A stretch of 64,000 bases of DNA from Lachnospiraceae bacterium (GTDB taxonomy: Bacteria; Bacillota; Clostridia; Lachnospirales; Lachnospiraceae). The position numbers and the translations under genes were made by a program. The notes under the pieces were generated by a model. That model saw nothing but the letters and a program-made list of their open reading frames with translations, made no database searches and had not been told where the DNA came from. The stretch lies in assembly GCA_017431345.1 (NCBI GenBank), contig JAFRLH010000083.1, positions 62,001 through 126,000 on the forward strand, given 5' to 3'. Below are positions 5,166 through 62,204 of this stretch, one piece after another. Every line of letters begins with the position of its first letter. Within the stretch, counting starts at the first letter, position 1.

Positions 5166-5190
5166 TATGGATATGACAGAAGAATGAAGG

Positions 5191-5219: not shown

Positions 5220-5223
5220 GCAG

Positions 5224-5249: not shown

Positions 5250-5257
5250 CGTTATTC

Positions 5258-6799: not shown

Positions 6800-6877
6800 A
6801 TCCTGATCCTTTCCCGATGCCATGTATCGTTGACCGGTAATTCCGTGTATCTGTAAAACCGGGAGCAGCAATCCCTG

Positions 6878-8619: not shown

Positions 8620-8700
8620 GATCTTTCCTCCTGCAATAATATGATGAATTGACGTAAAATCAGATTGTATTGCCTGTATCCTGCTGTCTGCTGTATCCTG

Positions 8701-10603: not shown

Positions 10604-10624
10604 AGAATCCCTTTCAGCGTATAA

Positions 10625-10706
10625 CCTCTCCCGGCGCTGCCGCGCCGCCTGCGCTCTCAGAAGCCCACTCCTTTAGGAGAGGGTGCCCCGTCAGGGGCGG
10701 GAGAGG
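10625..10706 (-). repeat. 82-bp imperfect palindromic repeat-like element in the pgsA-cinA gap
   Basis: The element is bounded by inverted ends cctctccc and gggagagg and contains internal palindromes (ggcgctgccgcgcc, ctcctttaggag, gccccgtcaggggc). It fills almost the whole intergenic gap and its last base touches the pgsA stop codon. The layout resembles the short GC-rich dispersed palindromic repeats common in gut Clostridia, but only one copy lies in this window, so the repeat status is inferred. It has no T run, so it is not a standard terminator. Transcribed, it would fold into a branched hairpin in the operon message. Confidence 0.6.
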
Positions 10707-11246
10707 TCATTCCTGTTCCGCCAGGACATGCCTGTTCTTTACGATATAATCCACGAGCGACCACAGTGTCATAATGGTCGCTGCCCAGATCAGGATCAGC
10801 TCCAGCATATGCCATGCGGGCATATCAAGATGGATCAGAAGCGCGACCGTCATCACCATCTGGATCACAGTCTTGATCTTCCCGAGCCATCCGGCGGCGA
10901 TCACGATCCCGCGTTCCGCGGCAATAAGCCGGAATCCGCTGATCACAAATTCTCTTCCGATCAGGATGACAACAGCCCATGCAGGGATCCTGCCGATGGC
11001 CGTAAGACAGATGGCCGCGGATCCGACCAGCAGCTTGTCCGCCAGCGGATCCATAAATTTCCCGAAATTCGTCACCAGATTATATTTCCTGGCAATGTGC
11101 CCGTCCAGGTAATCCGTAAAACTGGCAGCCAGAAAAAGCACCAGCGCGATGATATCCCCGGTCACACCGAAGTCTCCCAGCAGGAAAAGGACGAACGGAG
11201 GAACCATCAGGACCCGCATCAGCGTCAGTTTATTAGGCAGATTCAT
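10707..11246 (-). CDS. pgsA: CDP-diacylglycerol--glycerol-3-phosphate 3-phosphatidyltransferase
   Basis: A 179-residue integral membrane enzyme that makes phosphatidylglycerol phosphate. I start at ATG 11246 (MNLPNKLTLMR, the standard PgsA N terminus), which has AGGAGGAG just upstream, rather than at 11267. The CDP-alcohol phosphotransferase motif D-(x)2-DG-(x)2-AR-(x)8-G-(x)3-D-(x)3-D is present as SFTDYLDGHIAR...TNFGKFMDPLADKL. About five hydrophobic helices follow. The start overlaps the rimO stop by four bases (ATGA). Confidence 0.96.
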   Translation of the reverse strand: MNLPNKLTLMRVLMVPPFVLFLLGDFGVTGDIIALVLFLAASFTDYLDGHIARKYNLVTNFGKFMDPLADKLLVGSAAICLTAIGRIPAWAVVILIGREFVISGFRLIAAERGIVIAAGWLGKIKTVIQMVMTVALLIHLDMPAWHMLELILIWAATIMTLWSLVDYIVKNRHVLAEQE

Positions 11247-46965: not shown

Positions 46966-49900
46966 CTATTCACCGATTCCGGCTGTTTCAAGGATAAATC
47001 TGACTGACCCCTTCATCGTATCGGCCTTGCCCGTAAATGTATCGTAGGCACCGTCCGCTTCCTTCACGGCTCTGAATCTGTCCACCGCATTTTTGAAGTC
47101 GTCTCCGAAAGTATCCGTGATCTTCTGAATGCCTTCTTCATCAAACTTCTTCATACCGTCTTTCAGTTCTTCAGATCCGTCCGCCAGTTTTTCCACGCCT
47201 TCCTTCAGGTCTCCTGTTCCATCGGACAGCTTTTTTGCACCGTCTGCCAGCTTCTCACTTCCGTCATAGAGATCGCCGGCGCCCTGATCCAGCTTCTTTG
47301 CACCGTCATACAGATCTCCGGTCCCTTTGCTCAGATCCTTAGTCCCTTTGTACAGCGTTCCGGTTCCTTTGCTCAGTTTCCCGGCGCCTTTATCCAGATC
47401 TTTTGCGCCGGTCTTCAGATCCTTCGCACCGGATTTCAGCGACTTTGTGCCCTTCTTCAGTTCCCCGGCTCCGCTCTCCGCCTCTGCCAGGCCTTCCTTC
47501 AGATCCTTCGCGCCGGATTTGAGCGTCTTCGTACCGTCTGCCAGCGTGCCGGCGCCGTCTGCCAGCGCTTCTGCGCCGGCCTGCAGATCCGATGCACCGT
47601 CCGAAAGCGCTGAAGCGCCTCCGGAAAGCTGTTCCGCGCCGCTGTTCAGCGAACTGTTATTTTTTACCAGTTCATCGCTCCCGGCCTTCACTTTTTTACC
47701 GCCTTCAATGACGGCGTCTGCACCGGAAACAAGCCTGTCAGTGACAGACGCAGAGGAGACCTGTTCTGCTCCTGACTGCAGTGCGGACAGCCCTGCTTTG
47801 AGTTCGCTGATATCGCTGTCACTGATCTTTTCAGCGATGCCATCGATATAGCCTTCTGCATATCCTGCATTTGTGGCTGCGGATTTCATGTCTCCCTGTG
47901 CAAGCGAACCGAGATCCTGCGCCTGCGCGCCGACTTTTTTCGCATACTCGCCGAAGGTTTTTACGCCGGAAGCAGCTGATTTTATATCGGAATATGCATC
48001 GTTCAGTTTCGAACCAGCCGATGACAGGGTGTCCGAAACGTCTCCTACAGCCGAAGCAGCTTTGCCGATCGCTTCAAGCGCTGCATCCTCTCCGCTGATC
48101 TTGGCCTTCACACCGTCCGTATCGAATTCGACATCTTCCACCTCTGCGTCCAGACAGCCAAGCGCGCTCTCGATCACATCGCTGTCTACCTTGGCATCTT
48201 CAAGAATCTTTCTTGCCTTCTCTATACCGGTCACATTTGCTTTCGCAGAGGTAACTTTTATGGAGTCAAGTCCTGTTACCTTCGCAGTAATATCCGCGTC
48301 TTCCAGCACTGACTTTGCCTTCCCGAGTTTATTTGCCGCAGATTCCGCATCCCCGGCGGCTGACGACAGTTTCTTTCCTGCGCTCTCTGCGGATGCAGCA
48401 GCGTCGGAGACCCCTCCGGCTGCGCCGCCCATCTCTTTTGCTATGTCACCGAGTTCCCCGGCGATCGATCCGGCCTTTTTCGCCGCAGCAGCGCCTTCTT
48501 CTTTGGCGTCTCCGGCATATTTGCCCGCAGTACCGAGCGCATCCTTTGTATCGGAAAGCTGTCCGGGAAGATTCTTATCGCAGATCTGTTCCACGCCCGC
48601 TGCCAGCTGCTTTACGCCTCCGACATACTCTTTGATACCGGAAGCCAGTGTTTCTGCACCTGCTGTATATTCGGAAATCCCCTGGTTCAGGGAATCGGCG
48701 CCGTCTGTATACGCCTTAATGCCTTTCCTGAGATTTCCGGCACCGTCTGCAAGGTCTTTTGCGCCGCCGGAAAGCGTTCCCGCACCGTCTTTGAGATCGT
48801 CGGCTCCCTTGGACAGCGAACCTGCGCCTGCATCGACATCAGATACGCCTTTATACAGGGAATCGCCGCCTGCATTCAGCTTCTTCGTGCCTTCTGCAAG
48901 ATCCCCGGCACCTGCATCCAGTTTCTTTGCTCCGGATGCCAGATCGGATGTTCCTTTATATAAAGCGCCCGTGCCTTTATCCAGTTTTTTCGCGCCTTTA
49001 TCCAGTTTTTTCGCACCGCTTTTCAGATCTCCTGCACCCTGATCCAGTTTTTTGGCGCCTTCTTTCAGATCCCCGGTGCCGCCGGCAAGAGTCTTTGCAC
49101 CGCCGGAGAGTGTTTTCGTCCCCTCATACAGGTCCCCGGCGCCGTCATCCAGTTTACCTGCGCCGTCAAGGAGCTCCTTAACACCGTCGTAGAGATCTCC
49201 TGTCCCGTTCACCAGTTTCTCTGAAGCATCCTGCAGTTCATCCAGGTCGGCCTGCAGATCGTCAATACTGTCGAGTTTATCCAGGTCCAGTTCACTGATC
49301 ATCCCTGTCGAAACAGCGCTGATCGTCAGCGGGAGCGAGAAATCCGTCGTGTCAGCTGTGATCGTCACATGATCCGGGATCTGTCCCTGCTGGTAATCCA
49401 GATCCTTGACTGTGTCCAGTTTCAGGCTGTCTTCCAGTCCCGGGAAGGCCAGTCCGACGACCGTGCATCTGCTGCCGTCTTCAATCGCCCTGCCGTTCTC
49501 GACCTCCACATTACTGAAGGTTTCATTGGAGAGGATCGTGCCGGAAACGACCGCGAAGGGGGTGTACACCGTCTCTTCCTTCTCTCCGATCTTCACCGTA
49601 TTGCTCTCATGGTTCTCATAATCGATCCGGATCTCTACCCTGCCGCTCTTTCCGGCAAGTTCATCCGGAGATATGCTGCTCCCGTCAAGCTTATAGCTCA
49701 GCTTTACGGAGACGGGAAGGCTTTTTGCAGTCTTTCCCTGATAGTAGATATCATTTCCTCCGGCATTCCAGGTAAGGGAATTGCCGGCACCCGCCGAAAA
49801 TGTTTCATCACCTTTTACATTCTCGATCTCCGAAAGTTCGGTGACATCCTCGATGGAGCTGCTTCCGGAAGCATTCTTCAGCCAGTTGCTGACCGTGATG

Positions 49901-50076
49901 TCTTCCACATTGCCGGAGGCATCTGCATTCACATAAACAGTCTCCGTCTTTTCCGGCGCTGCTGCGAACACAGGGGAAGCGGCAAGGATGATGCTTAAGC
50001 CTACTGCCATGACAGCAGCTGCAGCCTCTTTTTTTCTTTCTTTAAAGATATACAATACATTTCCTGAAGGTTTCAT
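46966..50076 (-). CDS. Large secreted heptad-repeat (G-A-x-x-L-x-x) protein paired with an MMPL transporter
   Basis: A 1036-residue exported protein with a signal/anchor segment (about 17-40, AAAAVMAVGLSIILAASPVFA). Residues 45-280 form a folded N-terminal domain. Residues 291-500 are thirty consecutive seven-residue repeats of the form G-[ATV]-x-x-[LY]-x-x, and about 785-980 a second array of roughly 28. Between them lies a mixed helical domain. This repeat form is known in YhgE/Pip-type and related cell-surface proteins where it makes long helical bundles. It has no wall anchor, and I see no C-terminal transmembrane segment. It overlaps the MMPL gene by four bases (ATGA), so the two are made together. 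Confidence 0.8.
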   Translation of the reverse strand: MKPSGNVLYIFKERKKEAAAAVMAVGLSIILAASPVFAAAPEKTETVYVNADASGNVEDITVSNWLKNASGSSSIEDVTELSEIENVKGDETFSAGAGNSLTWNAGGNDIYYQGKTAKSLPVSVKLSYKLDGSSISPDELAGKSGRVEIRIDYENHESNTVKIGEKEETVYTPFAVVSGTILSNETFSNVEVENGRAIEDGSRCTVVGLAFPGLEDSLKLDTVKDLDYQQGQIPDHVTITADTTDFSLPLTISAVSTGMISELDLDKLDSIDDLQADLDELQDASEKLVNGTGDLYDGVKELLDGAGKLDDGAGDLYEGTKTLSGGAKTLAGGTGDLKEGAKKLDQGAGDLKSGAKKLDKGAKKLDKGTGALYKGTSDLASGAKKLDAGAGDLAEGTKKLNAGGDSLYKGVSDVDAGAGSLSKGADDLKDGAGTLSGGAKDLADGAGNLRKGIKAYTDGADSLNQGISEYTAGAETLASGIKEYVGGVKQLAAGVEQICDKNLPGQLSDTKDALGTAGKYAGDAKEEGAAAAKKAGSIAGELGDIAKEMGGAAGGVSDAAASAESAGKKLSSAAGDAESAANKLGKAKSVLEDADITAKVTGLDSIKVTSAKANVTGIEKARKILEDAKVDSDVIESALGCLDAEVEDVEFDTDGVKAKISGEDAALEAIGKAASAVGDVSDTLSSAGSKLNDAYSDIKSAASGVKTFGEYAKKVGAQAQDLGSLAQGDMKSAATNAGYAEGYIDGIAEKISDSDISELKAGLSALQSGAEQVSSASVTDRLVSGADAVIEGGKKVKAGSDELVKNNSSLNSGAEQLSGGASALSDGASDLQAGAEALADGAGTLADGTKTLKSGAKDLKEGLAEAESGAGELKKGTKSLKSGAKDLKTGAKDLDKGAGKLSKGTGTLYKGTKDLSKGTGDLYDGAKKLDQGAGDLYDGSEKLADGAKKLSDGTGDLKEGVEKLADGSEELKDGMKKFDEEGIQKITDTFGDDFKNAVDRFRAVKEADGAYDTFTGKADTMKGSVRFILETAGIGE

Positions 50077-52172
50077 TTTACTGCCTCCGCTTTATCTCTG
50101 CCGGAAATCCCTGCCCGGCGCATTCTGAGACTTGTTCTTATAATGAGACCGTCGAACAGTGACAGTACCGACGGCAGGATGAGCAGAACGACTGCCATAC
50201 TGATCAGCGCACCTCTGGCCATCAGGATGCACAGTTCGCTTACAATATCTATTCCCGAATACAGGCCGACACCGATTGTTGCGCTGAAGAAAGAAAGGGC
50301 GCTTACGATGATCGACCGGAAACTGGTCCTGTGTGCGATCCAGAGAGCCTCTTCCCTGCTCTTTCCGCTGATCCTCTCCGTTTCATATCTGCCTGTCATC
50401 AGGATCGCATAGTCAACCGTTGCGCCAAGCTGGATCGTTCCTATTACGATACTGGCAACGAAGGAAATGACCGTTCCCGTCAGGAACGGGATCCCAAGGT
50501 TGACGAAAATGGCGAATTCGATGACAAAGATCAGCAGGACCGGCAGGCTGATCGAACCGAACACGAAGAAAATGATCAGGAATACCAGCAGGATGGACAC
50601 GGCATTGACTACCGTAAAATCTCTGTTTGTAATATTGATCAGATCTCTCGTGCACGGCGCTTCGCCGACCAGAAGACTTTCCGGATCATAGCTGTGGATA
50701 ATTTCCTCGATCCTGTCGCACTGGGCGTTCACCTCATCCGTTGCGACTTCATACTCATTCGTGATGATCATCATCTCCTGTGTATCGGAGGTGAAGATAT
50801 CCTTCAGCTTTTCCGGTACGAAGCTGTCCGGGATCATCGGTCCCACCAGGCTCTCCATGCCCAGGACCGCCTTAACGCCATCCACTTTTTCAAGTTCTTC
50901 TATCATCCGGTCCGCATCTTTATCCGGAATTGTCTTATCGATCAGGATCATGTGCATGGCGCCCATGTCGAAATATTCCTTCAGCTTGGCATTTGCCGTA
51001 ACGCTGGGAAGATATTCCGGAAGCGATGCGTCGATCTTATAATAAACATCCGTATGAAATTCGCACCAGGCTGCCGGCAGTACCCCGACTGCCAGGATCA
51101 GAACAAAGATACGGGAATGCTTCAGGATGAAATCCGTTGCCTTCGGAAATTCTTTTATGAACTGCCGGTGGGTAGTCTTAAGGATCAGCGGTTCAAATAC
51201 CAGGATCAGCGACGGCAGGATCGTTACGCAGCAGAGGACGCCGAAAAGCACCCCTTTCGCCATAACGACACCCAGATCAAGACCCAGGGTAAATGTCATG
51301 AAACACAGGGCTATGAACCCCGCGACCGTTGTGACCGAGCTGCCGATCACAGACCGCAGCGTCGCAGCGATCGCCTGTGCCATTGCCTTTTTGGAATCCG
51401 GTTCGCTCTCCTTTATTTCCCTGAAACTGTGCCACAGGAAAATCGAGTAATCCATCGTTACGCCCAGCTGCAGAACAGCCGCAAGCGCTTTGGTAATGTA
51501 GGAGATCTCTCCAAAGACCAGGTTCGTTCCCATATTATAGATGATCGCCATCCCGATACTTAAGAGGAACAGGAACGGGAGCAGGAAGCTGTCCATGGTC
51601 AGCGAAAGCACAATGATGGACAGCACTACCGCGATCACGACATAGATAACGACTTCCTTATCCGCCAGATCCTTGGTGTCCGTAACGATGGAAGACATCC
51701 CTCCCAGATAGCATCCTTCTCCGGCGATCTTCCGGATCTCATGGATCGCCTCCATCGTTTCATCCTCGGAAGTGCCGGTATCAAAGATCACGAACATCAT
51801 CGTGGCGTCTTCATTATTGAAAACATCATAGATCTTATCCGGGAGAACGCTCATTGGCACGGACAGATCCGCAATGGAATCATACCATAAGATCTTTTCA
51901 ACATGATCGACTTTTTCTATCTGTTTTCTGAGTGCGGATACTTCTTTTTCCTCCAGGCCTTCACAGACATACATGGCGTAAGCGCCTGTTCCGAAATCTT
52001 CTTTCAGGATATCCTGCCCGCGCATCGTATCGATCTCTTTCGGCAGATACGCCAGGATATCGTAATTGGTGCCTGTCTTAAAATACGCGATCGCCGACGG
52101 CATCAGGAGAAGAAAAGAAAGGATGAGGATCGGGATCCGAAGCCTGACTACTGCTCTTCCGAATCTTTGCAT
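50073..52172 (-). CDS. MMPL/RND family transporter
   Basis: A 699-residue membrane protein with the RND layout: a first transmembrane segment (about 15-35), a large extracellular domain, a bundle of segments with LQLGVTMDYSIFLWHSFREIKE, a second extracellular domain, and a second bundle with QLGATVDYAILMTGRYETER. The repeated GxTxDYxIxL motif marks the two halves. MMPL proteins export lipids, siderophores or drugs by proton force. It is co-translated with the heptad-repeat protein and lies under the TetR operator. The substrate is unknown; the partner suggests envelope or lipid-related export. Confidence 0.92.
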   Translation of the reverse strand: MQRFGRAVVRLRIPILILSFLLLMPSAIAYFKTGTNYDILAYLPKEIDTMRGQDILKEDFGTGAYAMYVCEGLEEKEVSALRKQIEKVDHVEKILWYDSIADLSVPMSVLPDKIYDVFNNEDATMMFVIFDTGTSEDETMEAIHEIRKIAGEGCYLGGMSSIVTDTKDLADKEVVIYVVIAVVLSIIVLSLTMDSFLLPFLFLLSIGMAIIYNMGTNLVFGEISYITKALAAVLQLGVTMDYSIFLWHSFREIKESEPDSKKAMAQAIAATLRSVIGSSVTTVAGFIALCFMTFTLGLDLGVVMAKGVLFGVLCCVTILPSLILVFEPLILKTTHRQFIKEFPKATDFILKHSRIFVLILAVGVLPAAWCEFHTDVYYKIDASLPEYLPSVTANAKLKEYFDMGAMHMILIDKTIPDKDADRMIEELEKVDGVKAVLGMESLVGPMIPDSFVPEKLKDIFTSDTQEMMIITNEYEVATDEVNAQCDRIEEIIHSYDPESLLVGEAPCTRDLINITNRDFTVVNAVSILLVFLIIFFVFGSISLPVLLIFVIEFAIFVNLGIPFLTGTVISFVASIVIGTIQLGATVDYAILMTGRYETERISGKSREEALWIAHRTSFRSIIVSALSFFSATIGVGLYSGIDIVSELCILMARGALISMAVVLLILPSVLSLFDGLIIRTSLRMRRAGISGRDKAEAVK

Positions 52173-52210
52173 GACCGGTTCCTTCTTTCGGTTTCATTCT
52201 TGCAGTTCTG

Positions 52211-52239
52211 GTTATAGTCCGAAAATGACCAGAAGTCAA
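52211..52239 (-). promoter_or_regulatory. Promoter of the MMPL operon, overlapped by operator 1
   Basis: On the minus strand TTGACT (52239-52234), a 17-base spacer and TATAAC (52216-52211). Operator 1 (52226-52238) covers the -35 box and part of the spacer, so a bound repressor would block the promoter. Confidence 0.75.
52226..52238. promoter_or_regulatory. TetR operator 1 (TGAC-N5-GTCA)
   Basis: A 13-bp palindrome TGACCAGAAGTCA, matching the second copy at 52258-52270 in both arms and in length. The centres of the two sites are 32 bp apart, close to three helical turns. Confidence 0.75.
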
Positions 52240-52253
52240 TATTTCGGTTCCTG

Positions 52254-52282
52254 TTTTTGACTTTCGGTCATTTTTGTATAAA
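52254..52282 (+). promoter_or_regulatory. Promoter of the tetR gene, overlapped by operator 2
   Basis: TTTTTG (52254-52259), a 17-base spacer and TATAAA (52277-52282). Operator 2 lies in the spacer region. Confidence 0.55.
52258..52270. promoter_or_regulatory. TetR operator 2 (TGAC-N5-GTCA)
   Basis: TGACTTTCGGTCA. The two operators are themselves arranged as an extended inverted repeat: AAAATGACC/AGTCAA on one side and TTGACT/GGTCATTTT on the other. Confidence 0.75.
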
Positions 52283-52389
52283 TCCGACGCGGCAGACGAT
52301 TGACAAGGCCGAAAAAAAAGGGTAAGAAATTGTTAACGGAAAATGCAGACTGCAGGAAGGACAGCGCGGGTCCGCGAGCGGAGGAAAAA

Positions 52390-53001
52390 ATGCAAAAGAC
52401 GGTCGGAAAGGCTGAACTGAATAAGCAGAAGAAGAAATCATCCCTGCTGGATTCGGCTTACAGCCTCTTTACATTAAAAGGATTCAATGACACTTCCATT
52501 TCTGACATCGCCCGTCAGGCGGGCGTTGCAAAGGGTACCTTCTACCTGTATTTCAACGACAAATTCGATCTGCGGAACAAACTGATCGCCTCCCAGGGAG
52601 AACGCATTTTCATGACAGCTATGGAAAAACTCTCCGGAAAGGAAACAATGCCTTTTGAAGAACAGGTGGTCTTTCTTGTGGATACGATCCTGGATGAACT
52701 GGCCGCGGAGCCGATGCTGGTAGGCTTTATGGCAAAGCACCTCAGCTGGGGCGTTTTCCGGAACAGCATGATCGACGGATCGTCTTCCCCCGCCTCGGTC
52801 CGGGAAGCTTATGAGGCGTTCCTGTCTCGATCCCCGGTAAAGTACAAAGATCCCGACATCCTCCTCTATATGATCCTGGAATTTATCAGCGGGACCAGCT
52901 ACAATTCGATCTTATACGGGCAGCCCTGTCCGCTGGCAGAGCTGAAACCGCACATGTACAACGGTATACGGGCCCTGTTAAAAAGTGCGGAGGTAGAATG
53001 A
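52390..53001 (+). CDS. TetR/AcrR family transcriptional regulator
   Basis: A 203-residue regulator. I start at ATG 52390 (MQKTVGKAELNKQKKKS), with GGAGGAAAAA directly upstream; the open frame to 52300 has no site. The N-terminal helix-turn-helix is intact (LFTLKGFNDTSISDIARQAGVAKGTFYLYF in parts). The C-terminal ligand domain is unlike its neighbours. It is divergent from the MMPL operon, and two identical-type palindromes lie between the two starts, so it most likely represses the operon and itself. Its ligand is unknown. Confidence 0.93.
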   Translation: MQKTVGKAELNKQKKKSSLLDSAYSLFTLKGFNDTSISDIARQAGVAKGTFYLYFNDKFDLRNKLIASQGERIFMTAMEKLSGKETMPFEEQVVFLVDTILDELAAEPMLVGFMAKHLSWGVFRNSMIDGSSSPASVREAYEAFLSRSPVKYKDPDILLYMILEFISGTSYNSILYGQPCPLAELKPHMYNGIRALLKSAEVE

Positions 53002-53579
53002 TGCGCATACTTCTGATCAGACACGCAGAGCAGGCTTCCAAAGTGTGCAACGCCGATGTGAGCCTGTCCGAAACAGGAAGGAAGCAGGCGGAAGCGCTTG
53101 CAGAACGGCTGCTTTCGTATGGCATTGACGCGGTCTATTCCAGTCCTCTCCGGCGGGCGGCGGAAACTGCCGGTGCTGCCGCGGAGAAAACCGGTCTTCC
53201 TGTCTTCATCAGGACAGAACTGTCCGAAATGGACTTCGGAGAACTGACCGGACTGCCGCATGCGGAACGCATAGAAAGGGAGAGGCAGTATTCCGAAGAA
53301 CGAAACGGCGCTCTCACAGACAGGCCGTACCCCGGAGGAGAATCTTACGGTGAAGTCTATGAGCGTATCCGGCCGGTGCTTGCAGAGATCACCGCTTCCG
53401 GCGCGGAATGCGCAGCTGTCTTCTCCCATCTGGAAGCCCTGCGGGCCATGGTATCGGGGATGATCGGCCTGCCGTTCGGTCACGCGAAACTGATCCTGAA
53501 AGGCCTTCGCCATACAGCGGTGACGGAAATGCTTTACGATGCAGAGACCGGCAGATATTATCTGAAATCGATTGGCTGA
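52998..53579 (+). CDS. Histidine phosphatase family protein (phosphoglycerate mutase-like)
   Basis: A 193-residue protein with the RHA-type catalytic motif LLIRHAEQ at the start (RHG-like; the phospho-accepting His is present), the catalytic Arg in SSPLRRAAETA, the acidic EMDFGELTGL and a late His in FSHLEALRAMV. ATG 52998 overlaps the tetR stop (ATGA), so it is translationally coupled to the regulator. Such a phosphatase may act on a phosphorylated metabolite or cofactor; a link to the export locus is only inferred from the operon. GGAGGTAG precedes the start. Confidence 0.9.
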   Translation: MMRILLIRHAEQASKVCNADVSLSETGRKQAEALAERLLSYGIDAVYSSPLRRAAETAGAAAEKTGLPVFIRTELSEMDFGELTGLPHAERIERERQYSEERNGALTDRPYPGGESYGEVYERIRPVLAEITASGAECAAVFSHLEALRAMVSGMIGLPFGHAKLILKGLRHTAVTEMLYDAETGRYYLKSIG

Positions 53580-53627: not shown

Positions 53628-55355
53628 TTATCTGAGTGTATTTGTCTGGTTGCCTTCCTGGGAATCAGCGTCCGTAAGGATCTCCCCGTCAAATACCTTC
53701 TGAATGCGTTCCTTTGCACCCTGGATGGATGCTTCATCCTGCAGAGCTACATACAGGCTGCGGCTTCCCATGGAATAGGTGGAGCGTCTTGCGCCCTGTC
53801 CGGATACGCCGTAGGACTTGATGTTCCAGTCTGTGCTGGAGTCAAGTTCCATCTTTACCAGATCCGTAAGGTCTGTGCTGGCAAGGTCGGTATTGAAGGA
53901 TTCCTGCAGGCTTGCCATCAGATCGGAATAACGGAGCAGCATCTCCGGAGAGTGCATCTTATTGATGATCGCCCTGATCATTTCCATCTGATGTCTCTGT
54001 CTCTCGAAATCACCGTTCGCGAAGGAATGGCGCTCACGGACAAAGCTCAGGGCTCCCATGCCGTCGACATGGTTGATGCCTTCGTCGAAATGGACGCCGT
54101 AGACTTCACCGGTAAAGGCCTGGTCGCTGTTGACATCCACGCCGCCGAGTGCATCGACGATATCCATGAATCCGGTAAAGTTCACACGCAGGTAGTAGTC
54201 TATATTAATATCATAAAGCTGTTCCAGCGTCTCGATGGAAGCATCGATTCCATAGATTCCGGCGTGTGTCAGCTTGTCATAGGCATTGCCCGCAACAGGA
54301 AGCTGTACATAGTAATCACGGGGCGTGGTGACCAGCATGATCTGACGGGTCGTCGGATTGATCACTGCAAGGATATTAACGTCGCTGCGGCTTCTTGCAG
54401 CCACGGAACCGAAGGTATCGATACCGCTGAGATAAACAATGAAGGGTTCAGCCGTAACATTTTTATCGACCTTCTCTCTCTTGCTCATATCGATCTCGAA
54501 ATCGAATTTCATCGTTTCGATAACAGCAGTCTCGATATCAAAATCTTCGTGCTCATCCTTTACGAGTTCACGATAACTCTCGCTCAGAAGGATCGCGTCC
54601 ACTTCCTTGTCATAAAGCGCCTGAACAAGGTCGAGCATACCGGCATAGTCAACGGTCTCGCAGTCCCCGCCGATTTCCGATTTGAGCTGCTCGACTGCCT
54701 TCTCAGTGACTTCCGGCAGCATGACTGTCTGGATACCGATCTTCTTCCCGGAAAGTTCCTTCACGGAAGTAATGACATCGATCGCCGGGGCTGTTTCCGC
54801 CGCTGCTGTGGTCTCTTCCTCGTCTTCCTCGCCTTCTTCGCTTTCCGCAGTCTCTCTCTCCAGATCTTCTCTGGTCTTTCCGGAGAGGACGACAACGGAT
54901 ACTTCTTCAGTCTGGAGCATTACTTTTTTCGCGGTTTCTGCCGCATCCTCCGCCTCGTTCTCTTCGGATGCCTCTCCGGTCTCTCCGGAATTCTCCGCGG
55001 CCTGTGTCTCCTGCGCTTCGTTCGTGATCACTGCAAGCGTCTTCATCGTAGAATTAATGTAATAAACGCCTGCGCATGAAGCAGCAAGAATCGCCAGGGA
55101 GAGCAGACTTCCGACCAGTCTCGCAGGCAGCGGTCTCAGGCAGACAAAGATCCAGGCCAGAAGGAGCATCAGTACAAGTGCGCCGAGAACGACTGCCATA
55201 TATTTGACCGGCAGGATGTTCACTCTGAAAACAAAGAACACCAGCACGGCGGCTGCAAGTGTCGCAAGGACCGCAAGGATCTTTCCGAGCACGCCTCCGC
55301 TCTTTTCCTGTGAATATTTTCCGTATTTCTTGTGGGAACGATATTCATCTTCCAT
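53628..55355 (-). CDS. LCP family cell-wall ligase (LytR-CpsA-Psr) with an added binding-protein-like domain
   Basis: A 575-residue protein. I start at ATG 55355 (MEDEYRSHKKYG), after GGGAGGTAACC; the frame is open to 55430. Three hydrophobic segments in the first 115 residues are followed by an acidic linker and then, at about 195-305, a domain that resembles a periplasmic-binding protein (VITSVKELSGKKIGIQTVMLPEVTEKAVEQL and AILLSESYRELV). The LCP catalytic domain comes last (about 310-520), with the metal/pyrophosphate arginines and DYYVQLPVAGNAYDKLTHAG, VDALGGVDVN and FVRERHSFANGDFERQRHQ. LCP proteins attach teichoic acids or capsule to peptidoglycan. The extra domain is seen in Clostridial LCPs. 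Confidence 0.92.
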   Translation of the reverse strand: MEDEYRSHKKYGKYSQEKSGGVLGKILAVLATLAAAVLVFFVFRVNILPVKYMAVVLGALVLMLLLAWIFVCLRPLPARLVGSLLSLAILAASCAGVYYINSTMKTLAVITNEAQETQAAENSGETGEASEENEAEDAAETAKKVMLQTEEVSVVVLSGKTREDLERETAESEEGEEDEEETTAAAETAPAIDVITSVKELSGKKIGIQTVMLPEVTEKAVEQLKSEIGGDCETVDYAGMLDLVQALYDKEVDAILLSESYRELVKDEHEDFDIETAVIETMKFDFEIDMSKREKVDKNVTAEPFIVYLSGIDTFGSVAARSRSDVNILAVINPTTRQIMLVTTPRDYYVQLPVAGNAYDKLTHAGIYGIDASIETLEQLYDINIDYYLRVNFTGFMDIVDALGGVDVNSDQAFTGEVYGVHFDEGINHVDGMGALSFVRERHSFANGDFERQRHQMEMIRAIINKMHSPEMLLRYSDLMASLQESFNTDLASTDLTDLVKMELDSSTDWNIKSYGVSGQGARRSTYSMGSRSLYVALQDEASIQGAKERIQKVFDGEILTDADSQEGNQTNTLR

Positions 55356-55373
55356 AAGGTTACCTCCCTTATA

Positions 55374-55403
55374 AATATATTGTCTTTCATAATCCTGTGT
55401 AAA
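55374..55403 (-). promoter_or_regulatory. Possible promoter of the LCP gene
   Basis: On the minus strand TTTACA (55403-55398), an 18-base spacer and TATATT (55379-55374), giving a very short leader before the ribosome site. Confidence 0.45.
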
Positions 55404-55443
55404 TAATAACCACAGCACAATCTCCGACATTTTAACATAAAAG

Positions 55444-55550: not shown

Positions 55551-58500
55551 TCATCGCAGTCCTTTCGCTCTCCTTCTCTGCAGCATTGCAAGCCCGGCTC
55601 CTGCGGTCACTGTCAGCAGGAACCCGAAGAGGCTGATCAGCGCAGTACCGTGGCCGCCGGTGGACGGAAGTTCGACGCCCGGATTGTTCCAGACCCGGAT
55701 CTGCCAGACGGCGTCAGCCTGTCCTTCCTGCCAATGTCCATCGCCTTTCTGTGTCACTTCAGCCGGCTGCATTCCCTGCATAGCAGTCACGCCGCTGCTT
55801 CCCACAAAGACTTTGATTGCGGAACTTGCAGACATGTATCCGGCAGGAGACTGTTCCTCCACAAGCCGGTATTCTCCGTCCGGCAGACTGCCGAGCGGCA
55901 GGATCCCATCCTCACCAACGGGAGTACCGGGAAGGACCGGCACAGCGTTTTCAGTCGGGCGTTCTTCACTGTCATCATAGTCTGCCACCCTGTAAAGAGA
56001 GAAACTTGCTCCCGTCAGGGCATTATAATTCATATCTGTCTTCCAGACAGAAACCATGTGGGTATTGCCATTAATGACAGTAATGGTGTAATCCATTTCC
56101 CCGTCTGCTGTTTCTTTCTCTTCCGTTCTCAGCCAGCTTACATAAGCCGCTGTACGGATCGTTACACCGCCGTCCAGACCGATGGAGAAGCACAGATCTT
56201 CCTCCAGTTCTTCGCAGCCGGACGGTGCCTTTGTCTCACAAAGGTAATACGATCCCGGAGAGAGGTACTCATTGATCCCCTGTATGACACCGTCATCGCC
56301 CGAAACCAGTTGTTCATAACCGGAAATCGGATAATAATCTTTTCGCACGCCGTTGGATGTTGTGATCTGTTTGTACAGGGCAAATTCCGCACCGCTTAAG
56401 GGATGGCCGGACGCGTCCTGTTTGACAGCTTTCAGCACGAACGGCCGGTTCTTTACAGTCAGGACACCGCTTTCCTGATCAAAGACATAGTCCCTTTCGC
56501 TGCTTTCCGGTATCGAATAAGTACCGTTTTCAACGGTGATCGTGATATCAGCGAACAGGCCATGATGCCGCACAGGTGCTTTTGTTTCCGAGAGCGTATA
56601 GGTTCCGTCATCCAGATAGAAGGTCGTCACTAAGCCTTCCGCATCGGACGTATACCGTCCAACCAGGGAAGTCCCCTGTTTCAGTTCGAACACAGCGTCC
56701 GCCAGGCCGGTCCCGGTCCAATCCGTTTTGACGACCCGCAGGCCGCCCAGACGGGTGTTCGTGACTGTATCGGCACGGGTCTTGCCTCCCTGATCAGGAG
56801 TCCCCTGACCATAAGAAACTTCGTATGTCAAATCTGACAGTACATTTCCATCACTGTCTGTCCCGCCCAGCTGAATAGTATCGCCGGTATCCATTTTCTC
56901 GAGTCTCGTGTAAGTTACCGTCCCGTCCGCAGCGACCACCGGGTCTGTCAGTTTTACTTCATACACCCTGTAATCCGAAAATTCTGCATCCGCTTCAAGG
57001 GACGGGAAATAATACGTCGTGTAATTATAAGCATCGACCCTGCGGACAGTGTCCGGAAGCAGCTCTCCTTTCACATAGACCGCTATATAAGCATAATCGT
57101 GCGACCGCATGAAATCCTGATCAGACCATACTTTATTCGCCCGGATTCCCCAGCCGCGCTGATTGTGTACCTCGATCTGCGGATTGCTGTTGTCACGGAT
57201 CACCCCGGCGTTCTCGGTGTCGCCCTCATCAACAAGGTAAGACCCCGCCACACGCTTATAACCTGTGTAGGTATGCGACACATCGCCTTCTGTTTCCGTC
57301 CAGATGCGTTTTCCATATCCGACAGGATTATCATAATCCTCTTCTGTTACCTTAAACTTCGTACCGACCAGAAGATCCCGGACCTCGATGCTGTAGCCCG
57401 CCGGCAGTTTGGAAGCTGCACCGCTGGGTGATGTCCGGAAGGTCACTTTATTCAGCTGTTCCGGGGTCAGATCTGCAAGGTCCTGTGATCCGATCGATGC
57501 AAAGGTCTTCAAAGAGGAATCAAAGTAACAATAGTCTCCAGAAGGATCTTTTATGAAATAATCTCCCTGGTTGTAATACGCCAGATCCTCCCCAAGGGAC
57601 AGACGCATGGTGAACCCTGCGGGGTCATCCTGACCGGACAGCTCCGTTGTTCCGTCTTCCGCGAACAAACGCTTTTTGATCGTCAGCGTTCTGAGCTGGC
57701 CAGGATCCACCTGATTGCCGAAAGTGACTGATTTCCTGTCACTGACAGCTGCCTTACCGGTTTCATAGCATTTTGTATGCACTGCGCCTTCCGGCTGAAC
57801 GCCCGCTGCGATCTCATCATTGATCCGCACTTCATTGTAAATGGACGTATCCACGCCGCACTCTTTGATATAGTAGGAAAGTGTGTTGTCGGGCGTCATG
57901 ATCGACGCAGTCTGTCCGGGCTTTAAATAGAAAACGTTATCGTATGTTACGTTATCGATCTCTGCCGTCTCGGCAAAATCGACTCTGGTCGATGTATTCT
58001 GATAATTGACGCGCCATTTGGAGTTCGTTCCGACCTCCTGTCTGAGCAGCTGATACTCACCCCCAGGCTCTGTCTGGCAGTAGATCTGGAAAGGGAACCG
58101 GACACTGGTGAAGTCCTGCTTGTCTGTACCGATTATTTCCTTTTTGAGCAGTACTTCGCCGGGCTCGACCGTTGTCAGGTTAAAGCGCATACGCAGATTC
58201 GACGCACCGGCACCTCTTTCCATATAGAAAATACGTACTGTATGGTCCGTATAATCCCTGAAAACATAGCATTCATTTCCATCGACCATCTTCTTTTGGA
58301 AAATACTGTCCACATAAGCCTGCGCTTCTACATCGGTATGATTGTCTCTGTTTTTATAGTTATTATAGAACAGGTCTTTCAGCGTCGTAGACTGGCCGTT
58401 CACGTTTACTTCGCCTGTGGAATAGTTCACCGATCCCGGAACCGCGCTGTGGATACCGCCCAGGTCGATGACCAGTTCTCCGTCGACATACAGCCAGAAA

Positions 58501-61500
58501 TCGTCGTCGCCCACGAACTCAAAGATAATGTCATGGCCCCAGGCGTCATGACCGTTCGGCGGCTGCATGAAATGACCGGTGAGCTCCATGGCAAAGTGAT
58601 GATCGTCCTTCTCCGTAAAATCATACAGCGGCTCATACTTACGGGGATCGTTCTCCGAACGCGGATTCCCATAGATATCGGTCAGGTTCTCAGGGTGCTG
58701 AGGATGCACCTTATTCGGATCCAGCATGTTATAGGGCATAAACTGTCCGTGCTGACGGGTATTCGAGCCCCCGTCTACCGTACCAAGTTCCTGATAAACA
58801 TCAAAATTGTTTCCACTCAGATGCGCGAAGTTTTCCGAACTGTCAAACTGGAAATAACCGCTGCCGTCATAAATGCTCTGGATAAACAGATGGTTGACTT
58901 GCGCTGCGCCTGCATATAGTGTACCGAGCGAGGTCCCCGGTCTTTCCGTTATGTCAGGATAGCCTGCCGCATCTCCGGAAATAGCTGAAGAAAGAATTCC
59001 CTGCTGCAGCGCTGTACCGGTGCCGCCGTTATTATTGCCTAGAATACCGCTCATATACGCCTGGTCAGAACAATCGATCATCTTCATGGTCAGGCCAAGC
59101 GCTTCGTGATCTACTGTCTCTACCGGCGTCAGCGTACCTTCCGCCTTCTTCATAACGGCAAAATAGAATGTATCGGCCTCTGCCATCGGACAGGATACGA
59201 TCTTTCCGTTCTCCACTTTGTAGCCGGCATAGTCATAATGAGGATCGTCCCATGCCAGGATCGGGGTATAGTAATCCCCATACCTCCTGCCGTTCAGGTT
59301 GACCCGGAAGAATTCATCGGAGAGGATCTGCCCTCCATTGATCTGCGGCGCAATATATTGTCCTGTATAAGCGTTCTGCAGGGTATAGTAACCGTTTGGC
59401 GTTGTCGTGCCCGGGTTGTAATATTCCGTGAAATTCCAGAGCATCTGCTGATTATTCTGCGTCCCGATCCAGACAATGGAATCACCGGATTCATAGCAGG
59501 GAACCAGATTGCTGTTCTGGTCGACCGCATAAAACTCGTATTTCTTATCGTTCGGATTCCAGACACGGGTATAAATAAGCACCTGTTTGTCATTGGCCAC
59601 ATTGACACGGTCGGATACACTGACCTTGTATGCGGCATATTCCACGAAATCCGAGTCTTCGAGGACCGATTTTTCCATCAGGTTATGCCAGCTATTGCCG
59701 CTGGAACTCTCAGCATTCGCATTGAAAACTTTGTTGTCACCGGGCAGATATACAGCTTTGTTGGCCTGCTCCCCCAGGAGACGCACTTTCCCCGCATTGG
59801 CTCCGGTCCCGGGGATTACCCGGATCCGGCAATGCTCATCCGGTGTATCAGCCAGTGCAAGTTTGTTTCCCGTAATCCGAAGATACTTCCCCTCAGATTG
59901 CAGATAGTAAATATCCTTCTCCACCTTCTCGAACGTCCACATGGCAATATCGCTGTCCTTGGCCACATAGAGGAGGTGGTTCGGATCCATGGGATCTGTG
60001 CGGATCAATGCCTGTTTGACATCCAGACCGTTTCCTTTTTCTTCCGCCAGCATGCCATAAGCAGCCGTATCGCTTTTCCGGTTCATGATCCCATAGGTCA
60101 TACCGTCCAGACCATAGGGATTCGCAGGGGCAATCTCTGAAAATGTAAACGTGAACTTACAGTTGCCGGCATTCGAGTTTTGCGAATATAACCTTATGCC
60201 TGATCCGCTTCCCGAGTGCTGTATCCAGTTATCCTGTCCATCCAGCCGAATATAAAACTTCCCACTGCTCTGCGTGACCTGAAAAACATCCCCGGTATCG
60301 GACAACTTCATTTTTCTGTTCTGCGCATCAGAGGGATCCCGGGCAAGATACTGCCTGGAGGAACTGCTTCCCGTATAAATGCGGAACCTGTCCGTTGTCC
60401 CTTCGACCGGTTCAAAGAACCAGACAGCCGCCTGGCTGCGATCAGTCGTTTCAGCAAATGCTCCATTTCCGTTCAGAACAGACTGCATATAATAATTATC
60501 GGTCGCTGATCCCTGCGTTACAGACAGCCAGAACCCGCCTTCTCCGCGGGCACTTGTCAGATCATACAGGGAGGAAGCCGTATCCTCAAAGTTGACCGGC
60601 TCCTCTGCATCCACTACTGCGTACACACTGAAAGAAGCGGCGGAGAAGGAGGCGGAGAACCCGTCCTTTTCAGCCTGCACTGTATTTTCAATTACTTCGC
60701 CGCTTACTGTTCCATCCGCGAAATGGACCACCTGTGTATTTGCCGGCACTTCCTCCCGGGCCGCCTGATCAGACAGTTCGATCTTCACATCCACCGCTGT
60801 CCCATCTTTGGGCTGATACTTTACGTCCGGGTCATCTTTATCCACGATCTTAATATCGAACAGCCGGATATACCCGGCGCTTCCCTTTTCCGCACCAAGC
60901 GCATTTACCGCAGCTGCCGCATAGGCATCATAAGCAGAGGAGCTTTCCGTGATCTCCTCCACATACAGTTCCGCATTCTCCGGGATCCCGGTCTCCGGTC
61001 CGCAGGATACGGATATTTTGTAATTCTGTCCATCGCTGGCCAGGACAGTCTTTTCGATCGTTGTGGCGATGATTCCGTATACGGAAAACCCTTCCGCTTC
61101 AAAGTTGACTTCATCCCCTGCCATTTCCGCATCGATCCTTTCCGGATCGCCGCTGAAATGGACCACCTGCGCCGCCTCTTCCGCGTCTGCGCCGATGCGG
61201 TCCTGCAGATCGTCGAGAACGATCCGGACATCCACAGCCTCCTCCGGCTGGATCTCCCGTCCGGACGCATCCGTAATAGTAATATCAAAAAATCTGGCAT
61301 AAGAGACCGTGCCTTCTTCCGGTTCCAGCTGCTTTTCGGTATCGGAAATATATTCCTTATAATCTGCCGAGCCCTGTCTGATCTCCCGTACTTCCAGTTC
61401 TGCGTCTTCCGGAATGCCTGCTTCACTGCCGCAGATTACCGTGATCTGATATCCGTTTCCTTCCGCTCTGAGCGCTCTTTCAGCAGCCGTCTGAGAATCC

Positions 61501-62204
61501 TCTGTGGAATCTGCAGTATCCTGTACGGGAATGCTTTCTTCCGCAGTTTCCCCGGCAGCAGTTTCCCCGGCAGCAGTTTCCCCGGCAGCGGCTTTTTTCT
61601 CAACGGTCTCGTTTTCAACAGTTCCGGGAGTTTCCTTTTCCGTACTGTCCCCGGGAAGGAGTCCTTCTTCGGCGGCGGGCAGGGTCCCGGCCGCAGTCTC
61701 TTCTTTTCCTTCCGTTTCGGCAGCCTCTGTCTCTGACTGCACTTCTTTTTCCGTTTCCGGTTCCGCGAAACATTCCGAAGAATGGATATGTTCTTCCTTT
61801 CCGCAGGTCAGTTCGGTTTCCGTTTCGAAGCAGGATTCATCATGGGTATGTCCTTCGGTCTCCTGTTTCCCGCAGATCAGGATCCGCTCTGTCTCATAAC
61901 ATTCGTCTGTATGAACATGTCCGTCCTCTTCCTTCTGTTCACACACCAGGACCTTCTCTTCTTTATAGCAGGCATCCGAATGCGCATGGCCTTCGGTCTC
62001 ATCCAGTCCGCAGACACATACTGTAGTTGTTGTATAACAATCGTCCGTATGCTCGTGCTCTTCGATTCCGCATACGGTCTTCTTCTCCATCGTGATTGCC
62101 GGGAGGATCAGGGAATAAGTCGTGATGAACACGACAACAACGGCTGTCGTGAAGAACAACCGTCTGACCTGAAGTATTCTGTTCAGTACATGAAACAATC
62201 TCAT
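55551..62204 (-). CDS. Giant LPXTG-anchored surface protein with SpaA/CnaB-like domains and five His/Cys repeats
   Basis: A 2217-residue wall protein. After an N-terminal membrane segment (about 17-38) come five repeats of the form C-G-x(2,5)-H-x-H-[ST]-x-x-C-[YF] (about residues 44-147), then a Glu/Thr/Ala-rich stretch. Two copies of a roughly 150-residue domain follow (about 245-400 and 400-550). The middle carries ricin/fascin-like sheets and, at about 1150-1310, a fibro-slime/PA14-like domain (HFAMELTGHFMQPPNGHDAW). The last 700 residues hold several SpaA/CnaB-like domains (for example VVKTDWTGTGLADAVFELK and KAVKQDASGHPLSGAEFALYK). It ends LPSTGG, a hydrophobic helix and RRRAK, the sortase signal. 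It likely mediates adhesion; the His/Cys repeats may bind metal. Confidence 0.93.
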   Translation of the reverse strand: MRLFHVLNRILQVRRLFFTTAVVVVFITTYSLILPAITMEKKTVCGIEEHEHTDDCYTTTTVCVCGLDETEGHAHSDACYKEEKVLVCEQKEEDGHVHTDECYETERILICGKQETEGHTHDESCFETETELTCGKEEHIHSSECFAEPETEKEVQSETEAAETEGKEETAAGTLPAAEEGLLPGDSTEKETPGTVENETVEKKAAAGETAAGETAAGETAEESIPVQDTADSTEDSQTAAERALRAEGNGYQITVICGSEAGIPEDAELEVREIRQGSADYKEYISDTEKQLEPEEGTVSYARFFDITITDASGREIQPEEAVDVRIVLDDLQDRIGADAEEAAQVVHFSGDPERIDAEMAGDEVNFEAEGFSVYGIIATTIEKTVLASDGQNYKISVSCGPETGIPENAELYVEEITESSSAYDAYAAAAVNALGAEKGSAGYIRLFDIKIVDKDDPDVKYQPKDGTAVDVKIELSDQAAREEVPANTQVVHFADGTVSGEVIENTVQAEKDGFSASFSAASFSVYAVVDAEEPVNFEDTASSLYDLTSARGEGGFWLSVTQGSATDNYYMQSVLNGNGAFAETTDRSQAAVWFFEPVEGTTDRFRIYTGSSSSRQYLARDPSDAQNRKMKLSDTGDVFQVTQSSGKFYIRLDGQDNWIQHSGSGSGIRLYSQNSNAGNCKFTFTFSEIAPANPYGLDGMTYGIMNRKSDTAAYGMLAEEKGNGLDVKQALIRTDPMDPNHLLYVAKDSDIAMWTFEKVEKDIYYLQSEGKYLRITGNKLALADTPDEHCRIRVIPGTGANAGKVRLLGEQANKAVYLPGDNKVFNANAESSSGNSWHNLMEKSVLEDSDFVEYAAYKVSVSDRVNVANDKQVLIYTRVWNPNDKKYEFYAVDQNSNLVPCYESGDSIVWIGTQNNQQMLWNFTEYYNPGTTTPNGYYTLQNAYTGQYIAPQINGGQILSDEFFRVNLNGRRYGDYYTPILAWDDPHYDYAGYKVENGKIVSCPMAEADTFYFAVMKKAEGTLTPVETVDHEALGLTMKMIDCSDQAYMSGILGNNNGGTGTALQQGILSSAISGDAAGYPDITERPGTSLGTLYAGAAQVNHLFIQSIYDGSGYFQFDSSENFAHLSGNNFDVYQELGTVDGGSNTRQHGQFMPYNMLDPNKVHPQHPENLTDIYGNPRSENDPRKYEPLYDFTEKDDHHFAMELTGHFMQPPNGHDAWGHDIIFEFVGDDDFWLYVDGELVIDLGGIHSAVPGSVNYSTGEVNVNGQSTTLKDLFYNNYKNRDNHTDVEAQAYVDSIFQKKMVDGNECYVFRDYTDHTVRIFYMERGAGASNLRMRFNLTTVEPGEVLLKKEIIGTDKQDFTSVRFPFQIYCQTEPGGEYQLLRQEVGTNSKWRVNYQNTSTRVDFAETAEIDNVTYDNVFYLKPGQTASIMTPDNTLSYYIKECGVDTSIYNEVRINDEIAAGVQPEGAVHTKCYETGKAAVSDRKSVTFGNQVDPGQLRTLTIKKRLFAEDGTTELSGQDDPAGFTMRLSLGEDLAYYNQGDYFIKDPSGDYCYFDSSLKTFASIGSQDLADLTPEQLNKVTFRTSPSGAASKLPAGYSIEVRDLLVGTKFKVTEEDYDNPVGYGKRIWTETEGDVSHTYTGYKRVAGSYLVDEGDTENAGVIRDNSNPQIEVHNQRGWGIRANKVWSDQDFMRSHDYAYIAVYVKGELLPDTVRRVDAYNYTTYYFPSLEADAEFSDYRVYEVKLTDPVVAADGTVTYTRLEKMDTGDTIQLGGTDSDGNVLSDLTYEVSYGQGTPDQGGKTRADTVTNTRLGGLRVVKTDWTGTGLADAVFELKQGTSLVGRYTSDAEGLVTTFYLDDGTYTLSETKAPVRHHGLFADITITVENGTYSIPESSERDYVFDQESGVLTVKNRPFVLKAVKQDASGHPLSGAEFALYKQITTSNGVRKDYYPISGYEQLVSGDDGVIQGINEYLSPGSYYLCETKAPSGCEELEEDLCFSIGLDGGVTIRTAAYVSWLRTEEKETADGEMDYTITVINGNTHMVSVWKTDMNYNALTGASFSLYRVADYDDSEERPTENAVPVLPGTPVGEDGILPLGSLPDGEYRLVEEQSPAGYMSASSAIKVFVGSSGVTAMQGMQPAEVTQKGDGHWQEGQADAVWQIRVWNNPGVELPSTGGHGTALISLFGFLLTVTAGAGLAMLQRRRAKGLR
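61543..61587. repeat. Three tandem 15-bp repeats in the giant surface protein gene
   Basis: gcagtttccccggca occurs three times in a row, in frame (five codons), coding for repeated AAGET on the minus strand. The copy number can change without a frameshift, so it may vary between strains. Confidence 0.85.

Follow-up and report, generated by a model that had tools for sequence, protein, structure and literature searches.

A candidate TetR-controlled exporter from Lachnospiraceae pairs an MMPL pump with a secreted heptad-repeat protein

Introduction

In the MmpS5-MmpL5 system of Mycobacterium tuberculosis a coiled-coil insertion of 196 aa is described within the pump, with MmpS5 as its partner, and a tube made from long antiparallel heptad-repeat helices has been proposed for MmpL5 (PMC12501195). 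The HlyD/MacA/AcrA (MFP) adaptors form a family generally understood to serve both RND-type and MacB-type ABC pumps (PMC4446572, PMC8277102), and the porter-domain plan is described as common to MmpL and MacB/FtsX pumps (PMC8277102). One of these adaptors, Spr0693 of Streptococcus pneumoniae, is described as a nanotube (PMC5768738).

Here we analyse a TetR-linked locus within a 64-kb stretch of DNA from a Lachnospiraceae bacterium (the window), in which the gene of an MMPL pump is followed by that of a protein rich in LxxG heptads, hereafter HEP. How Gram-positive pumps carry hydrophobic cargo beyond the thick wall is, to our knowledge, little understood, and a limited literature search of titles and abstract openings returned no named system of an MMPL pump plus a heptad protein in Gram-positives.

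Results and Discussion

The Locus and Its Pump

The features of the locus are the following (window coordinates, strand, description, basis).

46966-50076, minus: HEP, secreted LxxG-heptad protein with a predicted hairpin, 1036 aa, operon gene 2 (ORF, TIGR03057, AF2 model, conserved beside MMPL)
49960-50076, minus: HEP signal peptide, residues 1-39 (hydrophobic stretch ending VFA-A, boundary by eye; low-confidence model helix 8-31)
49267-49959, minus: HEP N-terminal all-beta base domain, residues 40-270 (AF2 pLDDT, conservation, predicted mu-homology-domain-like fold)
48595-49215, minus: HEP heptad arm 1, residues 288-494, 30 in-register heptads (helical in the AF2 model)
47146-47904, minus: HEP heptad arm 2, residues 725-977, 31 in-register heptads, dense from 759/782 (AF2 helix 776-989)
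46984-47013, minus: HEP C-terminal strand SVRFILETAG, residues 1022-1031, predicted to complete the beta base (pLDDT ~94)
50073-52172, minus: MMPL/RND pump, 699 aa, without coiled-coil insertion, operon gene 1 (PF03176, two stretches)
52226-52238, no strand: candidate operator 1, TGACCAGAAGTCA (TGAC-N5-GTCA palindrome; motif recurs in related intergenics)
52258-52270, no strand: candidate operator 2, TGACTTTCGGTCA (TGAC-N5-GTCA palindrome)
52300-53001, plus: TetR-family regulator, likely start ATG 52390 (PF00440; divergent relatives near MMPL)
52998-53579, plus: histidine phosphatase, outside the conserved unit (PF00300)

The ORF coordinates bear out the layout given in the original prediction: the MMPL gene and that of the 1036-residue heptad protein overlap by 4 bp, and the divergent TetR gene is coupled to the histidine phosphatase gene by another 4-bp overlap. 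The phosphatase had also been counted as a member of a four-gene set, and it is found in 0/80 related loci (best 80 of 584). The N-termini of relatives, compared by eye, make ATG 52390 a more probable TetR start than TTG 52300.

In a Pfam profile search PF03176 matches MMPL in two stretches (196 bits vs a cut-off of 20.5). The pairs D241-Y242 and D587-Y588 are invariant in a 12-row MMPL alignment, and we take such paired Asp-Tyr residues in the two MMPL repeats to be the proton relay, a role known from MmpL3. The nearest solved relatives are MmpL5 and MmpL4 (MmpL5 chain 9rfu_D, E 2.4e-23). The locus resembles MmpS5-MmpL5, where the pump is likewise an RND/MMPL protein and the nearest in kind among solved structures, in that long heptad helices would extend the pump, but differs in that the putative hairpin belongs to a separate secreted protein. 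An MmpL5-type pump with a coiled-coil insertion of ~196 aa in the second porter domain was considered and rejected: MMPL, at 699 aa, is too short (964-967 aa in MmpL5 chains 8zkp_A/9dp6_A, 739 aa in 9rfu_D), and the heptads reside in the separate protein.

A Conserved Gene Pair

In a scan anchored on MMPL the best 80 of 584 matches, representing the closest loci, were retained. HEP is present in 76 of these 80, lying directly downstream on the same strand in 74, divergent from MMPL in one (L147) and fused to it in another (L152), where both run in frame as a single ORF of 1636 aa. Two of the four loci without HEP are contig ends; L176 and L179 are complete MMPL loci without HEP and count against the pairing. 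Among 150 family genomes examined, HEP occurs in all 63 that carry a close MMPL and in 18 of the 87 that do not, and the pair was recovered in 15/15 loci fetched from elsewhere in the phylum, under 12 further family codes. Conservation of the pair, proposed beforehand as a test, is therefore evident, and MMPL and HEP are a conserved unit. As to single genomes, G067 has a close MMPL (L282, a shortened frame of 642 aa) with no adjoining HEP, its HEP belonging to a divergent pair, and G138 has a second close MMPL with no HEP match nearby. TetR genes excepted, no neighbouring gene is shared by more than 10 of the 80 loci (best 80 of 584), a further difference from MmpS5-MmpL5.

The neighbours of HEP were classified for 91 HEP ORFs in family loci, with L076 counted as MMPL-linked. 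Nine of them adjoin an FtsX-type ABC permease and form one clade (SH-aLRT 95); like the MFP adaptors, the HEP family thus adjoins both RND-type and FtsX-type ABC pumps.

TetR and Its Candidate Operators

The regulator matches PF00440 (Pfam; E 3e-14, 52.8 bits vs a cut-off of 24). In 37 of the 80 loci (best 80 of 584) a divergent TetR relative lies no more than 500 bp from MMPL, these being among 39 loci with that TetR, and 41 of the 80 are without this kind of TetR in the stretch examined. The two matching palindromes previously noticed between the gene starts are the sole TGAC-N5-GTCA sites in the whole 64 kb, both located between TetR and MMPL. The motif recurs in the TetR-MMPL intergenic region of all 37 loci with the divergent arrangement, amounting to 90 sites vs 0.08 expected from shuffles. 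In genome G118 MMPL and HEP are unlinked, yet the motif is found upstream of both; in G027, where the two genes are also unlinked, there is no operator, a point against the exporter model set out below.

Matched Heptad Arms in HEP

LxxG occurs 53 times in HEP, vs a mean of 13.7 and a maximum of 25 in 1000 shuffles of the same residues. When an in-register heptad is defined as hydrophobic..Gly at 7-residue steps, HEP contains 30+31 of them in two arms, with a middle of ~230 aa between. The figure of about 58 heptads given originally was thus close, although they form two arms and not a single run. The NCBIfam model TIGR03057, which denotes a repeat type and not a functional family, matches HEP in 19 stretches (178 bits vs a cut-off of 18.6, E 6e-54). 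Surface proteins of the YhgE/Pip and EsaA/YueB kinds carry xxxLxxG heptads, and HEP shares these; unlike them, it has a conserved N-domain of its own. The suggested kinship to YhgE-type proteins is not upheld, since no YhgE/Pip model matches at E<=1 in NCBIfam and a hydropathy scan indicates at most an N-terminal membrane segment in nearly all HEPs, C-terminal membrane helices being absent from nearly all.

Arm statistics cover the window HEP plus 67 others from the 80 loci (best 80 of 584), each complete and no shorter than 560 aa; the fusion L152 and contig-edge copies were excluded. Arm lengths range from 56 to 353 aa, about 5 to 40 heptads depending on the species, with a median difference of one heptad between the two arms. 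Across the 68 orthologues, arm 1 and arm 2 covary in length (rho 0.84) and in heptad counts (rho 0.94), and also on phylogenetic contrasts (r 0.71 and 0.87, respectively; 0/5000 permutations), vs a maximum of -0.11 in the random-split null. Because arm lengths change in step across these orthologues, the two arms most likely pair, forming a hairpin of ~30 heptads here, or ~31 nm if helical. The matching is weaker outside the close group (0.59, n=14; 0.60, n=12) and not significant among the nine ABC-linked HEPs (rho 0.47, p 0.21), and 9/21 divergent family members and 1/15 phylum loci have too few LxxG for arm measurement. On contrasts arm 1 is also weakly and negatively linked to the middle (r -0.27, p 0.025), which counts against this reading.

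Predicted Fold and Affiliation of HEP

Over residues 42-256 the AF2 model gives the beta base a pLDDT mostly of 90-98, falling once to 65 near 220-230. Models of two HEP orthologues display a beta base plus long helices, with a pTM of only 0.42 and 0.54 and a pLDDT of about 27-70 in the outer arms and middle. Both these AF2 models and the arm covariation suggest a base to which the two chain ends contribute, an alpha-hairpin lying between them; the predicted HEP is thus a beta base, made up of the N-domain and the final strand, from which a single long alpha-hairpin extends. Conservation within the protein is highest in the base domain, and a G.V.FI.ET-like C-terminal ending recurs in both pump-linked HEP classes (MMPL, ABC).

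This predicted build, encoded beside a pump, is shared with the MFP adaptors, Spr0693 included. Unlike them, HEP has LxxG heptads, and most of its predicted hairpins are longer; moreover, HlyD-type families are not among its matches in Pfam or NCBIfam at E<=1, where the adaptor search otherwise gave generic coiled-coil families below cut-offs. Fold searches with the base returned mu-homology domains, with low TM-scores over the target (0.26-0.43), and lipoyl/beta-barrel folds are not among the matches listed. No sequence similarity to mu-homology domains was detected in Pfam at E<=1 or in the PDB (0 matches at E<=1). The predicted base thus most resembles mu-homology domains, a similarity in predicted fold only, ancestry apart. 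In contrast to the eukaryotic domains (AP mu subunits, delta-COP), HEP is bacterial and secreted, with a giant predicted hairpin before the last strand. We know of the mu-homology fold only from eukaryotic coat adaptors, and if the HEP base truly has it, the fold also exists in bacterial envelope proteins. HEP would then be a widespread adaptor without a sequence link to known adaptors.

A Proposed Exporter and Its Alternatives

The interpretation towards which we lean is a TetR-controlled two-protein exporter with HEP as the dedicated, non-HlyD extracytoplasmic adaptor of MMPL. MMPL would sit in the cytoplasmic membrane as an RND-type pump driven by protons. HEP would be exported by its signal peptide, its N-domain and last strand folding into the beta base, which would dock on the extracellular porter domains of MMPL; from this base a very long antiparallel alpha-helical hairpin, composed of the two LxxG arms, would reach into or through the peptidoglycan. 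TetR on the TGAC-N5-GTCA operators would repress pump and adaptor together, until released by a ligand. The least certain step follows the proposal for MmpL5: a number of HEP hairpins may assemble about the pump as a helical tube, which in this case a second protein would provide. Docking, wall crossing, repression and substrate are what we infer. The adaptor analogy already drawn in the original prediction gains from the predicted base-plus-hairpin shape, the lock-step arm lengths and the ABC-linked clade, whereas its phosphatase membership and YhgE/Pip kinship fall away.

The genetics and the arm matching would be equally expected if HEP, docked on the pump, were a tether or ruler that spans the wall but has no lumen, and whose hairpin anchors or positions the pump in the peptidoglycan or spaces the wall. 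Moreover, arms of anything from 5 to about 40 heptads would be surprising in a pore whose function is fixed. Nevertheless, we consider this unlikely: adjacency of the family to FtsX-type ABC pumps would fit pump adaptors better than anchors, and the hairpin-bearing precedents MmpL5 (PMC12501195) and Spr0693 (PMC5768738) are described as conduits. A substrate carrier, that is, a secreted amphipathic helical protein taking lipid or drug from MMPL and acting as a lipid chaperone in the wall, would agree with a secreted, soluble-looking protein, one per pump, whose helical arms have Leu/Gly-Ala faces. This is improbable, given that arms matched to a median of one heptad suggest a rigid paired hairpin, that the base is what is best conserved, and that 5-40 heptads would answer no obvious need of a carrier. 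Finally, the TIGR03057 match and the LxxG heptads known also from YhgE-type surface proteins could point to an unrelated surface protein (adhesin- or phage-receptor-like, as YhgE/YueB) merely sharing operon and regulator, but this is disfavoured as very improbable by the near-total co-occurrence with the pump, the in-frame fusion, the operator kept on both genes after their separation and the lack of a YhgE/Pip model match.

Returning to the exporter with HEP as adaptor, we put forward only tentatively that HEP represents a second, non-HlyD efflux-adaptor lineage on a mu-homology-like beta base, whose hairpins of about 5-40 nm, tunable in evolution, would form helical conduits across the Gram-positive wall on RND and FtsX-type ABC pumps. 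If true, the tripartite-pump principle would have been reinvented for single-membrane bacteria. HEP offers an experimental handle here, since its length is an evident variable and members of its family adjoin pumps of two superfamilies. Hairpin length is probably tuned to the envelope, since heptad number varies so widely between species while the arms stay matched, and in these matched lengths selection on reach seems to have left a natural record.

Locus organization and conservation of the MMPL-HEP pair

The features of the locus and its flank are as follows:

46966-53579: genes for an MMPL pump (699 aa) and a heptad protein (HEP, 1036 aa), minus strand, head to tail with a 4-bp overlap; TetR and histidine phosphatase genes, divergent from these and mutually overlapping by 4 bp
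53628-55430: 600-aa protein adjoining the phosphatase, presumably resembling LytR-CpsA-Psr wall-polymer ligases (by eye, from a motif)
55551-62204: surface protein of 2217 aa with a C-terminal LPSTGG and membrane segment, which by eye looks sortase-anchored

Coordinates and Pfam/NCBIfam profiles confirmed the overlapping MMPL and heptad-protein genes and the divergent TetR-phosphatase genes of the original prediction: PF03176 matches two stretches of MMPL, and TetR_N and His_Phos_1 domains were found. In HEP only the xxxLxxG repeat TIGR03057 passed the cut-off, the remaining, weaker matches being coiled-coil families. LxxG occurs 53 times, whereas 1000 shuffles average 13.7 and never exceed 25. 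The heptads fall into two arms, at residues 288-494 and 725-977, separated by a middle of ~230 residues.

The conserved unit is the MMPL-HEP pair. Named genomes were scanned with MMPL as anchor, and the best 80 of 584 matches were used as loci; most of the window's nearest named relatives are Lachnospiraceae. The predicted pairing recurs in 76 of these 80: HEP lies immediately 3' of MMPL in 74, is divergent in L147, and in L152 is fused in frame to MMPL as one 1636-aa ORF (7001-11911 of a MAG contig). In two others the contig ends within 250 bp of MMPL, and in L176 and L179 HEP is absent within ~7 kb downstream. The reading of HEP as a conduit or scaffold for the pump is partly supported and sharpened. 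The histidine phosphatase drops out of the set, with a relative in none of the same 80 loci; apart from the TetR kinds, no neighboring gene recurs in over 10 of them. The L152 ORF, a single case, may be a natural fusion or an assembly effect; it retains a lipoprotein-like HEP leader internally. L176 and L179 are complete loci with a close MMPL, TetR and operators, yet without HEP.

A survey of 150 genomes of the same family, queried with the HEP N-terminal region, found HEP in 81; the MMPL alignment matches 96, with the close kind (E<=1e-250) in 63. HEP occurs in all 63 genomes with a close MMPL versus 18 of the 87 others (Fisher p 3e-26), with the caveat that among the 63, G067 has a close MMPL without adjoining HEP, its HEP sitting in a divergent pair, and G138 a second close MMPL without a HEP match nearby. 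The 92 family loci fetched contain 91 HEP ORFs. Of these, 78 adjoin MMPL (77 classified by script, plus L076 from separate locus inspection) and nine an FtsX-type ABC permease; two stand alone and two lie at contig ends. Among 199 genomes from across the phylum, MMPL is matched in 53 and the HEP N-domain in 18, and HEP adjoins MMPL in all 15 extra-family loci with an MMPL match of at least 400 bits, every one of which was fetched. HEP was not found beside MMPLs of 827-861 aa (three loci) or ~1040 aa (two loci); therefore, one particular MMPL subfamily is paired. Neighbors of divergent MMPLs (L061, L062, L124-L130, L281) share the HEP base domain weakly (26-58 bits), but LxxG matches number just 1-5, and their arms may therefore be built from different repeats.

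TetR and its probable operator

The 64 kb contain two copies of the palindrome TGAC-N5-GTCA, and both fall in the MMPL-TetR intergenic region. The motif is present in 37 of 37 intergenic regions with a divergent TetR (1-4 sites each), totaling 90 sites versus 0.08 expected from single-base shuffles. In L147, TetR is flanked by HEP and MMPL, each with its own operator pair. In G118 the two genes lie on different contigs and the motif is kept at both: two operators at the HEP locus (L070) and one ~60 bp upstream of MMPL (L279). By base count, a lone site would turn up somewhere in L279 (9.5 kb) by chance about 1 time in 7, and its placement at the MMPL start is more telling than its mere occurrence. 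G027 is a counter-case, with unlinked MMPL and HEP genes and the operator at neither. Outside this locus, the motif occurs at background level in the genome of the window, and so the TetR looks local. A TetR of this kind is missing from the stretch examined in 41 of the best 80 of 584 loci. Direct BLAST identified a different TetR kind in 11 loci, one of which carries both.

Predicted architecture of HEP

We modeled the window HEP with AlphaFold2, together with 67 relatives as input. In the window model (mean pLDDT 64.6, pTM 0.42), residues 42-256 fold as a beta domain (pLDDT mostly 90-98), followed by both arms as long helices and a final strand at 1022-1031 (pLDDT ~94). The short orthologue L192 (622 aa) shows the same plan at higher confidence (mean 76, pTM 0.54; base mostly 92-98, arm bases ~70-86, last strand 92-97). 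Together with fold-search matches that cover both the base and the last strand, the predicted models suggest that the chain ends meet at the base and that a single hairpin runs out along one arm and back along the other. The base of the window HEP (46966-50076) has a predicted fold like eukaryotic mu-homology domains, with which sequence similarity is absent. An extra C-terminal amphipathic segment (FW..LLNLF-like), frequent among HEPs outside the close group (L249, L251, L255-L263, L119, L120, L135), is possibly a membrane or pump contact.

Arm lengths test the hairpin independently of the structure model. In 68 orthologues the two arms are matched (rho 0.84 for lengths, 0.94 for heptad counts), and by plain correlation neither is linked to middle length. 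With contrasts on the MMPL tree, r was 0.71 (lengths) and 0.87 (counts), values reached in 0 of 5000 permutations; arm 1 versus middle was weakly negative (r -0.27, p 0.025), the other arm-middle contrasts not significant. Heptad counts in 19 representatives below 65% MMPL identity gave rho 0.97. Random splits of the orthologues' totals reached -0.11 at best. In a further 53 loci at family level, the value was 0.82. Matching is weaker farther off (rho 0.59 in 14 phylum loci; 0.60 in 12 divergent family loci, a further nine not being measurable) and not significant in nine ABC-linked HEP copies. With a rise of 1.5 Angstrom per residue, an arm of 30 heptads would reach ~31 nm, and the observed 5-41 heptads ~5-43 nm.

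A putative adaptor

MMPL-HEP looks like an adaptor-equipped exporter, and most likely HEP would be a dedicated adaptor on a proton-driven MMPL. All 12 MMPL sequences compared keep the Asp-Tyr pairs D241-Y242 and D587-Y588. Among pumps of solved structure, MmpL5 and MmpL4 are closest in sequence. The coiled-coil insertion of MmpL5 is described as the pump's own, a predicted 13-nm tube required for efflux (PMC12501195); unlike the MmpL5 described there, the window MMPL has no such insertion, which HEP could provide in trans. A hexameric nanotube is described for the MacA-like Spr0693 of Streptococcus pneumoniae, modeled on its MacB-like pump (PMC5768738). The hairpins of HEP may form a tube, or may act only as a tether. 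The adaptor role remains putative; HEP matches no known adaptor family in the Pfam and NCBIfam searches.

HEP beside other partners

Nine HEPs, G000:C70 of the window's own genome and eight others, follow a PF00005 ATPase and a permease with about eight membrane helices and FtsX domains (PF02687); these profiles were run on L048, the other loci being assigned to it by BLAST. They form one clade (SH-aLRT 95; N-domain tree, 96 rows, quick search) nested, under midpoint rooting, within MMPL-linked HEPs, thus indicating one change of partner. A porter-domain plan common to MmpL-type pumps and MacB/FtsX, as outlined in a review (PMC8277102), could explain how one adaptor might dock on both kinds. 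The G000:C70 copy (L047, 3005-8175) has 710 aa and a lipobox; its permease is represented by ORFs of 263 and 523 aa that overlap, reflecting either a broken gene or a natural split. Finally, a partner of a third kind may occur in L278 (G313, 4423-6978), where MMPL is absent from the stretch: there a protein of 649 aa resembling HEP (67 bits) adjoins one of 195 aa with about five membrane helices.
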